From an uncultured Anaerolineae bacterium (GTDB taxonomy: Bacteria; Chloroflexota; Anaerolineae; J036; Brachytrichaceae): a stretch of 50,271 nucleotides of DNA. The stretch lies in the NCBI GenBank assembly GCA_938034415.1, contig CALHLE010000006.1, positions 1-50,271 on the forward strand. The letters are read 5' to 3'. The position numbers were made by a program, and so were the translations under genes. Positions within the stretch are counted from its first letter, which is position 1, and each line of letters opens with the position of its first letter. The notes beneath the pieces are model-generated. The model did no database searches. It was not told the origin of the DNA and saw nothing but the letters and a program-made list of their open reading frames with translations. Shown piece after piece: positions 6,227 to 37,450 of this stretch.

Positions 6227-6281
6227 AGCGACGCGATTCTAACATTCGCGCCGCTGAGGCGGTTTGACGCTCGACATCCTT

Positions 6282-6428
6282 TCAGCGCAGCGCCTTGCCG
6301 CGGAACGCCTCAACGCGCCGGTAGCCGCGCCGGTTCATGTAGTCCGCGATGCCGGCCGTCACTTCGCCGAACGCGCCCAAGCCGCAATACGCTGTCGCGA
6401 TATTCAGCGTCGTACTTCGATGCAGCAT
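6282..6428 (-). pseudogene. Remnant: C-terminus of a PreA/dihydroorotate-dehydrogenase-like enzyme
   Basis: A 48-codon reading frame ending in YMNRRGYRRVEAFRGKALR and a stop. The pattern TAGIADYMNRRGY..VEAFRGKAL resembles the extreme C-terminus of FMN-dependent PreA or dihydroorotate dehydrogenase family proteins (motif GxxxxMxxKGYxxxxxFRGKAL). Nothing resembling the rest of such an enzyme lies upstream; the Sco-like gene begins there on the other strand. I read this as the tail left after deletion of the rest of the gene, possibly at a recombination junction near 6430-6470. It could instead be a fortuitous ORF. Confidence 0.4.
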
Positions 6429-6470
6429 CCGTCTCAACGCGCGTTCAGCAAAATCTGCGACAGTTGCGGC

Positions 6471-7070
6471 ATGAAGATCGCCCGTCCAGGAGGAGCATTA
6501 GCAGCCGTGCTGCTGCTCGGCGCATGTGCCGCTTTCGCGCCCGCGCCAACACCGGAGCCTACCTTCCCGCCGCGCGCTATTCGCGTTGACTATCCGATCA
6601 CGCCGCCTGACGTGCCCATGTTAGACCAGGACGGACGCCCGACCAAACTGAGCGACTTCCGAGGCCGACCGGTGCTGATTTTCTTCAGCAACATCCACTG
6701 TCGCGAATCCTGTGTGGATGCGCTGCCCCAATTTCAGGCGATTAAGCAGATGCTCGGGCCGCGCAGCGCCGAGTTGACTTTCGTCATGGTGGGCACTGAC
6801 CGCGTGGCCGATGGGCCGAGCGCCCTCAAGCAGCACCTCCGCCGCTACGACCCGACGTTCGTCGGGCTTACGGCCGAGCGCAGCGACATGCGCCAGCTCG
6901 CGCTGCGTTTCGGCATTCACATGTACGAGAACCGCGATGGCGCGCTCGCTCCCCACGCGCCGTTCATCTACGTGCTCGACCGGCAAGGCCGCCTGCTCTA
7001 CTTTGTGCAGGATGGCGTGGCGATACCTGAGATCGTCCGAATTGTGACCCAGCTGCTCGACGAAAGCTGA
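6471..7070 (+). CDS. Sco1/SenC/thioredoxin-fold lipoprotein
   Basis: A 199-residue lipoprotein with lipobox LLGAC at about 20, a short Pro-rich linker, then a thioredoxin-fold Sco domain. Sco proteins deliver copper to, or reduce the cysteines of, the CuA site of cytochrome c oxidase outside the membrane. The two Cys of CRESC (residues 77 and 81) form the CxxxC copper motif, and a conserved His is in APHAPFIYVLD near residue 168. The motif lacks the usual Pro of CPxxC, so it is a divergent paralogue of the gene at 7088. Start set at 6471 (MKIARPGG) because only this start gives a proper signal peptide; a longer frame reaches back to 6264. Convergent with the second Sco gene, with a 17-bp gap. 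Confidence 0.82.
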   Translation: MKIARPGGALAAVLLLGACAAFAPAPTPEPTFPPRAIRVDYPITPPDVPMLDQDGRPTKLSDFRGRPVLIFFSNIHCRESCVDALPQFQAIKQMLGPRSAELTFVMVGTDRVADGPSALKQHLRRYDPTFVGLTAERSDMRQLALRFGIHMYENRDGALAPHAPFIYVLDRQGRLLYFVQDGVAIPEIVRIVTQLLDES

Positions 7071-7087: not shown

Positions 7088-7738
7088 TCATGACGATTCG
7101 CGCAACATGGCTTGTGCGTCTTTGGCGATGATCTCGATGGGCGTGCCGAAGGAGTATTTCATCCGCCACTTGCCCTGCGCATCGAGCAGGTAGATGAAGC
7201 TGGTATGAGCTACTAAGTAGCTCTCCGGATTGTTGCTCTGGGACGGTTGCTTCTCGAACACCCCATCGAACTCGTAGATCAGCTTCTTCAGCGTGGCTTC
7301 GTCGCCCGTCAGGCCGATGAACGCCGGATCGAAAGCCGTTACATACCGGCGGATCACCTCCGGCGTGTCGCGTTGAGGATCCACTGAGATAAAGACGAAA
7401 TTGACCTGCTCGCCCGCCTCGCCCAGCGCGCGCTTCACCCGGCGCAGGTCTGCCATGGTCAACGGACACACATCCGGGCAGAAGGTGTAACCAAAGGCGA
7501 TGAGCGTGGGCTTGCCGTGCAGGGCGCTAAGCGGCATCGGTTGATTGTCTTGATTCGTCAGCACAAAGTTGGAAATCGTGCGGTATTGGCTAATAGCAAT
7601 GCCGCCGGGCGTCGGCGTCGGGACTGGGCCGGTGGCCAGTTGCGGCGCGTAGCTGAGCAGCAAACCGAAGATGACGATGGCGGCCATGCCGCCCAGCACG
7701 CCTAGCAACACCTTAAAACCATCGCTCCGGGTATCCAT
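7088..7738 (-). CDS. Sco1/SenC copper chaperone, membrane anchored
   Basis: A 216-residue Sco family protein. One transmembrane segment (about 9-30) anchors it, followed by a short Thr/Pro linker and a thioredoxin fold. The canonical copper ligands are C87 and C91 in TFCPDVCP and H178 in VAHTSFIYLLD. The family metallates the CuA centre of cytochrome c oxidase. Lies 70 bp downstream of the PCu(A)C chaperone gene on the same strand; those two families act together in CuA assembly in other bacteria. A GC hairpin between the two (7768-7801) may reduce read-through. Confidence 0.92.
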   Translation of the reverse strand: MDTRSDGFKVLLGVLGGMAAIVIFGLLLSYAPQLATGPVPTPTPGGIAISQYRTISNFVLTNQDNQPMPLSALHGKPTLIAFGYTFCPDVCPLTMADLRRVKRALGEAGEQVNFVFISVDPQRDTPEVIRRYVTAFDPAFIGLTGDEATLKKLIYEFDGVFEKQPSQSNNPESYLVAHTSFIYLLDAQGKWRMKYSFGTPIEIIAKDAQAMLRESS

Positions 7739-7808: not shown

Positions 7809-8345
7809 TCAGGGTTCGCGCACGGTCACATCAACGGAGATGGTCTTGCCCGATTGGAAGGCGAGCGTGAGCTGAAATGCGTCGCCGGGCTTCAGCTCGC
7901 GCTTGACGCCCATCAGCATGATGTGATAGCTGGCCGGCCGCAGCTCCACGCTGCCGTTGGCGGGGATTTCCAAGCCGCCGGCGACTTCTTCCATCATCAT
8001 CATGCCATCCTTCTCTCTAGTCTGGTGCACCTGGATCATCTCGGCAACGTCGCCGGATGCCTTGAGCAACTTGTCGGGCGCGCTGCCTTTGTTCTCGATC
8101 GTCATATAGGCGGCGCTGTTCACGCTGCTCATCGCGGCGTCGGTCTTACCCGAACCACCATGACCGCCATGGCTGTGGCCTTCGCCGGCGCCTACCATGC
8201 CCATCGTGGGGCGCGCCCAGGCGTCGCGAACCACAATGTCACTCTGCCCGCCTGTATTTTGGGCAGGCGTGGCCGGCGCGGCGCAGGCGACGAGCATCAA
8301 CCCTGCGACGGCCGCTAGGAGCGTCTTCTTGATCCACATGTTCAT
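7809..8345 (-). CDS. PCu(A)C copper chaperone lipoprotein
   Basis: A 178-residue lipoprotein (lipobox LMLVAC near residue 21) of the PCu(A)C/DUF461 family, which binds Cu(I) outside the membrane and passes it to cytochrome oxidase. After the start of the domain (IVVRDAWARPT) it has a His/Gly-rich insert, GEGHSHGGHGG, at about 54-64. The ligands follow as VHQTREKDGMMMM and YHIMLMGVKRELKPGD, matching the H...M...H-x-M copper site. The His-rich insert and the run of four Met are extra potential copper ligands. Two in-frame starts (8345 and 8339) are possible; the first is used. The neighbouring Sco gene makes CuA assembly the likely job. Confidence 0.9.
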   Translation of the reverse strand: MNMWIKKTLLAAVAGLMLVACAAPATPAQNTGGQSDIVVRDAWARPTMGMVGAGEGHSHGGHGGSGKTDAAMSSVNSAAYMTIENKGSAPDKLLKASGDVAEMIQVHQTREKDGMMMMEEVAGGLEIPANGSVELRPASYHIMLMGVKRELKPGDAFQLTLAFQSGKTISVDVTVREP

Positions 8346-10398: not shown

Positions 10399-10570
10399 AG
10401 TCAACCCTCCCAATCAATGATCGAAACTCACTTCACAGCCATCGTGTGCGCGGCAATGCAAAGCCCATTATAAGAACAAACCCGCTTTTGCCAACGCATT
10501 CTCAGCAAGTTGTAACCCCTGCCCTATATGATGGTGCGTGTATTCTGACGACAAGGAGGATTCAGAAACA

Positions 10571-10999
10571 ATGACGCGAATGCCCCGAATGATAGTTGCA
10601 GCGGTTATGGCAACGACGATGATCGCGCTGTCGGCGTGTGGGTCAACTCAGACGACGCCGACGTCAACGCCGGTTGCGCCCGCCACAGCGCCCGCTGCAG
10701 CGCCGGCGGCCAGCGCCCGCCCCCTGTTCATTGACTTCTACGCGCCGTGGTGAGGATCGTGCATGGCGATGAAGCCTGTCGTGAACAGGCTCAAAGAGGA
10801 ATTCGGCGATCGGGTGGAATTTAGAGCGCTGAACATTGACGAAGCCGGCTCTAAAGAAGCAATGGCGAAATACAAGTTCGTTGGCCAACCCCAGTTCGTC
10901 ATCGTCGCTCCGAACGGCGAGGTGGTTGCCTCGCGCAACGGCATACAGACCTACGACCGGTTGAAAGCTGATATCGAAGCGGCCCTCGCCAAGCGTTGA
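10571..10999 (+). CDS. Selenocysteine-containing thioredoxin lipoprotein (TGA at 10751 read as Sec)
   Basis: Read through one TGA (10751-10753), this frame is a 142-residue lipoprotein thioredoxin. It has a signal peptide, lipobox ALSAC, a Thr/Pro/Ala-rich tether (residues 25-50), then a thioredoxin fold: strand LFIDFYAPW, the active site U-G-S-C with Sec at residue 61 and Cys at 64, helix MAMKPVVNRLKEEFG, strand VEFRALNID, and the cis-Pro region GQPQFVIV. TGA replaces exactly the first Cys of WCxxC, and the frame is otherwise unbroken on both sides. A SECIS-like hairpin follows (10773-10791). SelA is encoded at 36068-37450. A standard caller would give two fragments, 10571-10753 and 10763-10999. 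Start at 10571 has AAGGAGG 11 nt upstream. The protein probably reduces extracytoplasmic thiols, perhaps of the Sco and CuA assembly proteins nearby. The alternative is a nonsense-mutated thioredoxin. Confidence 0.88.
10773..10791 (+). promoter_or_regulatory. Bacterial SECIS-like hairpin of the selenothioredoxin mRNA
   Basis: Perfect 7-bp stem AGCCTGT (10773-10779) / ACAGGCT (10785-10791) with a 5-nt loop CGTGA. The loop has a G at position two, as in the bacterial SECIS consensus, and starts 26 nt after the TGA, inside the 16-37 nt window known for these elements. It lies within the coding sequence, as bacterial SECIS elements do, and would recruit SelB with Sec-tRNA. Confidence 0.8.
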
Positions 11000-11019
11000 G
11001 TTGATGCGCGCGTCGGTCA

Positions 11020-11060
11020 GTCGCCTTCCACACTAGAGAGGGGGTGGAGGGCGACTTTTT
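11020..11060 (+). terminator. Rho-independent terminator of the selenothioredoxin gene
   Basis: Arm GTCGCCTTCCAC (11020-11031) pairs with GTGGAGGGCGAC (11044-11055), 12 bp with one G-T pair, followed by TTTTT (11056-11060). It begins 20 bp past the stop codon and overlaps the stop of the convergent Uma2 gene. Confidence 0.9.
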
Positions 11061-36067: not shown

Positions 36068-37450
36068 TTACGCGGCGCGCAGGCGATGCACCAACTCGTC
36101 GTCATCCAGCACGGTGCGCAAGTCGAGCGTAACGCGGTCGTTGCTGATTCGGGCGATCACGCCGCGCGCGCGCAAGGCGGCCAGGATCTCGTGCGGCGAG
36201 CGCGCGTCCGACGTGAGCGCGATCAACGTCGTCGGCAGGGTCTCGCCCGGCAACGACCCGCCGCCCACCGTGCTTTCGCCGTCTACCAATTCGGCCCGCA
36301 GGCCGTTCGCCGATAGCCAATCGGCGATCCGCGCGCTCACCTGATGTGCGCGCTGCGCAATGCCGGATTTGGGCATGGCCAACATGCGGATCACCGGCAC
36401 CTCGCGATGCGCCTCGCCGCGTGCGTAATGCCGCAGCGTCGCCGAGAGTCCGGCCAGGGTGAATTTATCGGCGCGGAAGGCGCGCGCCAACGGATGCTGA
36501 CGGCAGCGCTCAATCCACTCGCGCCGGCCCAGCATGATGCCGGCCTGCGGCCCGCCCAACAGCTTGTCGCCGCTGAAGGTCACAATGGCCGCGCCGGCGC
36601 GCAGGCTATCCTGCGGCATCGGCTCGCGCCGCAGGCCGAACTGCGACGTATCCACGAGCGCGCCGCTGCCCAGGTCGTCCAGCACCGGAACGGAGAACCG
36701 CTTGCCGAGCTGGACCAGATCTTGAATGGGTGTCGCCTCCACGAAGCCGACCATCAGGAAGTTGGACGAGTGCACGCGCAGGATGGCGCCGATGCCCGGC
36801 GCGCGCGCTTTGGCTTCGAGGATCGCCCGCTCGTAGTCCGCCAGGCGCGTTCGGTTGGTCGTGCCCACCTCGATCAGATGCGCGCCGCTTTGTGTCATGA
36901 TCTCGGGGATGCGGAATCCGCCGCCGATCTCCACCAGTTGGCCGCGTGAGATCACCACGCCCTTGCCGGCGGCGACCGCTGCCAGCATCAGCACCGTCGC
37001 TGCGGCGCAGTTATTCACGACCAGCGCCGCTTCTGCGCCGGTCAATTGGCGCAGCAACTGCTCCACCGCCTCACCGCGCCGCCCGCGTTCGCCGATGGTC
37101 ATGTCGAATTCCAGCGGGCTGTAGTCGCGCCCAACGGTCAGCATCGCCTCTTGTGCTGCTCGGCTGAGCGGCGCGCGACCGAGGTTAGTGTGGATGATCA
37201 CGCCGGTCGCGTTCACAACGGTCGGCGGGCGCTCGGGGGAGGATGCTTGCAACAGAGCGCGCGCAGTCGCGATCAGCTCATCGCGGGAGGGGAACGGGGC
37301 GCCATCGCGGATGGCTTGGCGGGCGCGCTCGAGCGCTTCGCGGAGCGCATGCACCGCGCGCGCATGTCCTTCGGCTTCGACCAGCCCGTTGGCCTGCGTG
37401 AGCAGTTCGCTGACGCTCGGCAACTGCCGCAGCCTGTCGTTCAAGGACAT
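36068..37450 (-). CDS. selA: L-seryl-tRNA(Sec) selenium transferase (selenocysteine synthase)
   Basis: A 460-residue PLP enzyme that turns Ser-tRNA-Sec into Sec-tRNA-Sec with selenophosphate. The PLP lysine is K296 in TFSGDKLLGGPQAGI; other conserved blocks are VNATGVIIHTNLGRAPLS, NNCAAATVLMLAAVAAGKGVVISRGQLVEIGGGFRIPEIMTQSGA and VLDDLGSGALVD. Length and order match SelA, not the shorter archaeal-like proteins. It gives strong support that the host decodes TGA as Sec, which the thioredoxin gene at 10571 needs. TATAAT lies 7 nt before its ATG. It lies about 100 bp downstream of the RNA methyltransferase gene. selB, selC and selD are not in the window. Confidence 0.95.
   Translation of the reverse strand: MSLNDRLRQLPSVSELLTQANGLVEAEGHARAVHALREALERARQAIRDGAPFPSRDELIATARALLQASSPERPPTVVNATGVIIHTNLGRAPLSRAAQEAMLTVGRDYSPLEFDMTIGERGRRGEAVEQLLRQLTGAEAALVVNNCAAATVLMLAAVAAGKGVVISRGQLVEIGGGFRIPEIMTQSGAHLIEVGTTNRTRLADYERAILEAKARAPGIGAILRVHSSNFLMVGFVEATPIQDLVQLGKRFSVPVLDDLGSGALVDTSQFGLRREPMPQDSLRAGAAIVTFSGDKLLGGPQAGIMLGRREWIERCRQHPLARAFRADKFTLAGLSATLRHYARGEAHREVPVIRMLAMPKSGIAQRAHQVSARIADWLSANGLRAELVDGESTVGGGSLPGETLPTTLIALTSDARSPHEILAALRARGVIARISNDRVTLDLRTVLDDDELVHRLRAA

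Follow-up and report, generated by a model that had tools for sequence, protein, structure and literature searches.

The locus and its predicted product

The window, i.e. the whole stretch of 50,271 nucleotides that was analysed, makes up one contig of a 2.83 Mb genome (98.5% complete) of the Roseilinea group of hot-spring Chloroflexota. The features discussed here are compiled in Table 1. The frame at the center of this work translates as MTRMPRMIVAAVMATTMIALSACGS...FIDFYAPW*GSCMAMKPVVNRL...VGQPQF...ALAKR* (asterisks denote stop codons) and contains one internal stop only, the TGA of codon 61. The predicted product is composed of a lipoprotein signal peptide, a tether rich in Ala, Pro and Thr, and a thioredoxin domain, for which the Pfam model Thioredoxin (PF00085) returned 58.2 bits against a cut-off of 23.5 with codon 61 set to Cys. 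In the AlphaFold2 model, residues 51-142 adopt the thioredoxin fold with pLDDT values of ≈ 96-98, the last two residues being lower, and Foldseek matched this model to hundreds of thioredoxin-like chains (best E 3e-8). The original prediction had described a clear lipoprotein thioredoxin that stays in frame on both sides of a TGA placed exactly at the first catalytic cysteine; this description is borne out by the single frame of 142 residues, its PF00085 score, the lipobox LSAC, and the position of codon 61 within W-TGA-G-S-C in the translation. Gene callers without provision for selenocysteine (Sec) are expected to split such a gene into two fragments.

An Rfam scan of the gene region gave no family above the gathering score. 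A terminator-like hairpin was recognized by eye on the 3' side of the gene (≈ 11019-11056), where the terminator scan listed none; it is an element separate from the SECIS, which is best placed at the hairpin within the gene.

Table 1. Coordinates of the Sec-thioredoxin gene, its elements, and related or neighboring loci (positions in the window, unless a genome and contig or a locus is given).
Feature	Position	Strand	Basis
Predicted selenothioredoxin lipoprotein gene	10571..10999	+	Translation; 142 aa, Sec at 61, end TGA 10997-10999
Ribosome-binding site AAGGAGGA	10553..10560	+	Sequence; 10 nt ahead of ATG
Signal peptide and lipobox L20-S21-A22-C23, lipidated Cys 10637-10639 (predicted)	10571..10639	+	Sequence; L-x-A-C kept in most complete homologues
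UGA predicted to be read as selenocysteine, residue 61, first active-site position (W-TGA-G-S-C)	10751..10753	+	Same TGA in 18 genomes; where a genome lacks SelB/tRNA-Sec, its homologue has a Cys codon
Resolving cysteine, residue 64 (UGSC)	10760..10762	+	Invariant in 26-row alignment
Bacterial SECIS hairpin AGCCUGU-CGUGA-ACAGGCU	10773..10791	+	Covariation, fold energy; 19-38 nt past UGA
Proline 107, thioredoxin cis-Pro position by alignment	10889..10891	+	Invariant column; assigned from alignment alone
selA, L-seryl-tRNA(Sec) selenium transferase	36068..37450	-	TIGR00474 519 bits, cut-off 267.9; PF03841 440 bits
Convergent SCO1/SenC pair beside PCu(A)C copper chaperone	6264-7070, 7088-7738, 7809-8345		
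Second Sec-thioredoxin of the same genome (L004)	G000:C25:110741-110974	-	YUSAC
Cys thioredoxin lipoprotein (L002)	G000:C9:29349-29753	+	TGC codon
Two-TGA lipoprotein thioredoxins	L057 (G001:C109:21411-21713), L058 (G006:C1:3359463-3359774), L059, L060, L071, L072		UGPU, UAPU, UTPU
Dehydrogenase fusions	L055 (G025:C153:4926-5243), L056 (G009:C408:7936-8256)		UEAC
Weak DsbD_TM match (L111)	G006:C1:513202-513516		One in-frame TGA
YkuD L,D-transpeptidase genes	L082:6398-7531, L088:6683-7837, L083:4871-5989		Three genomes, two genera

Selenocysteine machinery and the SECIS hairpin

The presence of SelA in the same window, part of the original prediction, was confirmed with TIGR00474 above its cut-off, and selB, selC and selD, for which a search of the genome had been recommended, were all three located. 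SelB scored 335 bits (cut-off 242), SelD 360 bits (cut-off 125), and the tRNA-Sec 73.2 bits, with the anticodon TCA assigned by ARAGORN. SelD itself carries an in-frame TGA (SCAGUAGK), and behind this codon the fold shows, by eye, a hairpin whose loop likewise starts with CGUG. At the level of sequence, the selenocysteine apparatus consisting of SelA, SelB, SelD and tRNA-Sec is complete.

The published model of the bacterial SECIS element asks for a loop of 3-9 nt with G within its first two positions, a stem of 4-16 bp, a minimum free energy (MFE) ≤ -7.5, and a spacing of 16-37 nt (PMC13188914). All of these rules are satisfied by the hairpin that follows codon 61, with its stem of 7 bp, the 5 nt loop CGUGA starting 26 nt past the UGA, and a fold energy of -9.2 kcal/mol. 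No other hairpin of this class (TGA, 16-37 nt spacing, 7-bp stem, CGTG loop) occurs in the 50 kb window, whichever strand is read. Among 18 distinct TGA homologues, 97.6% of the pair cells are paired and four of the seven stem pairs have changed on both sides. Compensatory double changes occupy 20 cells vs 5.7 in shuffles, and the covariation score of 0.512 compares with 0.224 for shuffled and ≤ 0.11 for slid controls. Of 19 rows examined, 18 have CGUG at the start of the loop and one has CGUU. Set against synonymous recodings that preserve each peptide, most TGA forms have a hairpin of more than the expected strength (p 0.004-0.11), whereas most Cys forms do not (p 0.17-0.81 in six out of eight). 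The SECIS-like hairpin noticed early on thus proved to be a covarying element which agrees with all bacterial SECIS rules.

Conservation of the TGA codon and exchange with cysteine

The TGA at the position of codon 61 is shared by each of the eight other genus members and by nine further genomes of the family (G009, G011, G012, G015, G016, G018, G021, G024, and G025, the G024 homologue lying in two contig pieces), so that it is kept throughout the genus and in the majority of the family, 18 genomes in all. The remaining relatives have TGC or TGT at this place, with no further codon seen; the alignment of homologues that had been proposed as a check hence displays Cys or TGA and nothing else, and, as to TGC or TGT possibly hidden in the reads, the independent genomes of the genus uniformly have TGA. 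Over the 81 codons past the TGA, dN/dS with respect to the genus members amounts to 0.05-0.27, from which it follows that this segment is translated and under selection. An ordinary Cys thioredoxin, interrupted by a nonsense mutation or a sequencing error, would explain the internal stop, and the genomes are indeed mostly metagenome assemblies. Such a pseudogene is, however, very hard to reconcile with an identical TGA in 18 genomes, including the single-contig assembly G006, with strong purifying selection past the TGA, and with a covarying SECIS; the view that a chance nonsense mutation would not choose this codon agrees with its recurrence in eight out of eight genus genomes and nine beyond.

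It might also be argued that TGA carries a sense meaning without selenium, either in a code with TGA for Trp or Cys or by plain read-through, as the frame is open on both sides. A general reassignment is excluded because TGA terminates this very gene, as well as several of its orthologues, and the co-occurrence of SECIS and full Sec machinery with the TGA form leaves this explanation as improbable as the pseudogene.

The machinery follows the codon closely. tRNA-Sec was found in 18/18 genomes with the TGA form and SelB above cut-off in 17 of them, the exception being G018 (67% complete), which has tRNA-Sec. In the genomes of the close Cys forms G010, G013, G020 and G022, neither SelB (0/4) nor tRNA-Sec (0/4) was detected, the codon is TGC or TGT, and the hairpin has gone or decayed. 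Matches to the tRNA-Sec model of 49-52 bits in G010, G013 and G017, although above the Rfam cut-off, were rejected, being called tRNA-Ser by ARAGORN. Fisher tests of the co-occurrence of machinery and codon gave p 0.0065 and 0.0014, and ≈ 0.05 when collapsed by genus, a modest value since few independent losses are sampled, with six genomes making up the Cys forms of this branch (the four above plus G019 and G023). The last two carry divergent Cys homologues (WC[EL]PC) in genomes that retain both SelB and tRNA-Sec; consequently, replacement by Cys is not driven solely by the loss of the machinery. The tree suggests 5-6 switches between Sec and Cys, of which the starred branches force only two, and the count is inexact because of the many weak forks.

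A natural selenium experiment is provided by G015, with the intact Sec form, and its close relative and sister G020, with the Cys form, which differ in machinery, codon and SECIS at once. In G020 part of the hairpin can still be recognized, with the loop CGTGA on a decayed 5-bp stem, which is most simply understood as a Sec gene caught soon after its conversion to Cys.

Taken together, the frame, the conserved TGA, the covarying SECIS, the full machinery, and the loss of the latter together with replacement by Cys are observed features, and UGA 61 is almost certainly decoded as selenocysteine, a claim that sequence evidence by itself could hardly make stronger. The product is very probably an extracytoplasmic lipoprotein. 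For both parts combined, i.e. Sec insertion into a lipid-anchored thioredoxin as originally predicted and now well supported by TGA, SECIS, machinery and lipobox, we estimate a probability of ≈ 0.87.

Paralogues and the wider Chloroflexota branch

The genome that contains the window encodes a second Sec-thioredoxin (L004), conserved in the genus, with the active site YUSAC and N-terminal membrane helices; its TGA is followed by a SECIS of the same class (GUCCGGC-CGUGC-GCCGGAU). Loci resembling L004 (L065, L067-L070) combine YUSAC, YUGAC or YUTAC sites with N-terminal membrane helices and this SECIS class. Furthermore, a Cys thioredoxin lipoprotein of the same genome (L002) and its relative L048 have kept a SECIS-like hairpin with the codon TGC. 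The hairpin alone is therefore no proof of Sec; in these two genes it may be the trace of a Sec ancestor, or a product of chance. L002 is located directly after enolase, a position also occupied by the thioredoxin gene in G015 (Sec form) and in G020 (Cys form).

When 301 Chloroflexota genomes were scanned with a covariance model of the SECIS built in this analysis, 28 of them gave matches, and the model thereby recovers more such genes; as it contains flanking sequence columns, it favours thioredoxins and does not amount to an unbiased census. In each of the 25 further loci that were read out, the TGA is in frame and the protein is thioredoxin-like with a membrane or lipid anchor, UxxC being the motif in nearly all of them. 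With regard to the window's own genome, the match on C9 corresponds to the Cys paralogue L002, and weaker matches on C33 and C64 were rejected, the model start lacking a TGA.

Lipoprotein thioredoxins with two TGA codons (UGPU, UAPU, UTPU) form one clade with support 99/96, and a diselenide thioredoxin is a possible description of these UxxU proteins. L071 and L072 have a perfect hairpin, the Roseilinea copies an imperfect one, and no UxxU form was found in the window's own genome at E 0.001. In another variant, a Sec-thioredoxin domain (UEAC) is placed at the C terminus of an exported protein resembling glucose/sorbosone dehydrogenases (PF07995, 146.7 bits). The weak DsbD_TM match L111 could represent a fragment or some other TGA-containing membrane protein.

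Neighborhood, partners and a possible mechanism

The putative Sec61-Gly-Ser-Cys64 site is probably that of a thiol/disulfide reductase. SelB and tRNA-Sec would read UGA 61 as Sec, directed by the downstream mRNA hairpin. After export, the product would receive a lipid at Cys23 and stay tethered to the outer face of the cytoplasmic membrane through its Ala/Pro/Thr-rich stretch. With Sec present in the mature protein, the selenolate of Sec61 would attack a disulfide or sulfenate of the substrate, and Cys64 would resolve the mixed bond. The genome encodes a CcdA-like DsbD_TM protein with two Pro-Cys motifs (WTPC, LSPC), through which the selenenylsulfide might be re-reduced with electrons from cytoplasmic thioredoxin. 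A role as reductase is somewhat favoured over that of an oxidase or isomerase, both of which are also possible; VKOR, as oxidant partner, was found neither in the window's own genome nor in any of 10 genomes tested.

Two narrower versions of the Sec-lipoprotein reading assign a dedicated substrate. According to the first, the Sec-thioredoxin serves copper/CuA assembly, with SCO1 or the CuA subunit as the protein that it reduces. At a distance of 2-4 kb from the thioredoxin gene there are two genes for SCO1/SenC proteins and one for a PCuAC copper chaperone, in an order conserved within the genus, and Roseilinea, anoxygenic phototrophs of the Chloroflexota which also respire oxygen, possess A- and B-family heme-copper oxidases (PMC8446752). 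These genes lie, however, on different strands with unrelated genes in between, and no SCO1, PCuAC or CuA neighbors were found beside the homologues of other thioredoxin-bearing genera. The link to copper and CuA assembly genes put forward in the original prediction was not sustained beyond the genus; it is weak on gene order, and a dedicated copper function is unlikely. Within the SCO1 pair, CRESC of the first protein stands in the place of CPDVC in the second.

The second version envisages a DsbG-like rescue in the envelope, where the reductase would maintain the activity of single-Cys enzymes, for instance L,D-transpeptidases. In G015, G016 and G020, a YkuD L,D-transpeptidase with the catalytic Cys motif SHGCVN is encoded directly downstream of the thioredoxin on the same strand, with a gap of ≈ 15 nt in G015, a hint more operon-like than the copper context and limited to two genera. 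Since this neighbor is absent in the window and in other genera, the transpeptidase version must be considered doubtful, to much the same degree as the copper version.

Extending the reading of an anchored Sec-thioredoxin to the Chloroflexota at large, one may envisage a branch-wide selenium redox system on the outer face, with lipid- or helix-anchored Sec-thioredoxins (UxxC, some UxxU with two Sec, some dehydrogenase fusions), SECIS elements of the CGUG type, reset by CcdA, and a swap to Cys on loss of the Sec machinery. The chances for and against this broader picture appear evenly balanced.

Comparison with known systems

In contrast to classical cytoplasmic TrxA, the window protein has a lipobox signal peptide, which is kept in most homologues, and the TrxA equivalog model TIGR01068 gave 59 bits, far under its cut-off of 96.8. 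With the TlpA/ResA/CcmG and slr1796-type thioredoxins it has in common a membrane-anchored extracytoplasmic domain and a plausible reductase function, but it has Sec in place of their Cys; scores were far under the cut-offs for ResA (27.3/170), TlpA (22.2/230) and DsbE (20.1/123), and also for slr1796. Predicted envelope-type selenoproteins with a thioredoxin fold have been listed as well, namely DsbG-like, DsbA-like, PF13098 thiol:disulfide interchange, TsoB, SaoT, and thioredoxin-like proteins with a HUIPC motif (PMC13188914). They likewise have Sec in a UxxC-type motif and some are probably extracytoplasmic, whereas the best match of the window protein is PF00085. TsoB and SaoT were the only selenoprotein models with any score, at 20.4 bits against a cut-off of 805 for the window protein (NF045694) and 16.6 bits against 65 for the UxxU paralogue (NF040730); the window protein stayed below the cut-off of every selenoprotein model in NCBIfam release 20.

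The text of the 2026 review inventory (PMC13188914) makes no mention of lipoprotein, periplasm or Chloroflexota, and the literature search found no extracytoplasmic or lipoprotein Sec-thioredoxin. Sec-thioredoxins are already known; their anchored extracytoplasmic branch, including the UxxU and dehydrogenase-fused members, was not found in that inventory or in NCBIfam and is apparently uncatalogued. In this context one should bear in mind that a protein absent from one review and one library may still have been seen by others, and some genomes may already carry the annotation. The branch suggests that relatives of hot-spring phototrophs, and organisms across the Chloroflexota, carry out selenium-dependent redox reactions outside the cytoplasm.

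The recognised family in question is the Sec-thioredoxin of the PF00085 UxxC type, listed with WP_010956703.1 (PMC13188914, PMC9312934). The window protein shares with it the thioredoxin fold, Sec at the first active-site position, a SECIS just downstream, and the existence of Cys homologues, and its site UGSC stands beside UGAC, UGTC and UTTC in relatives. Unlike that family, of which WP_010956703.1 is known here from its listing alone, the window protein is predicted to be exported and lipid-anchored on a long tether.
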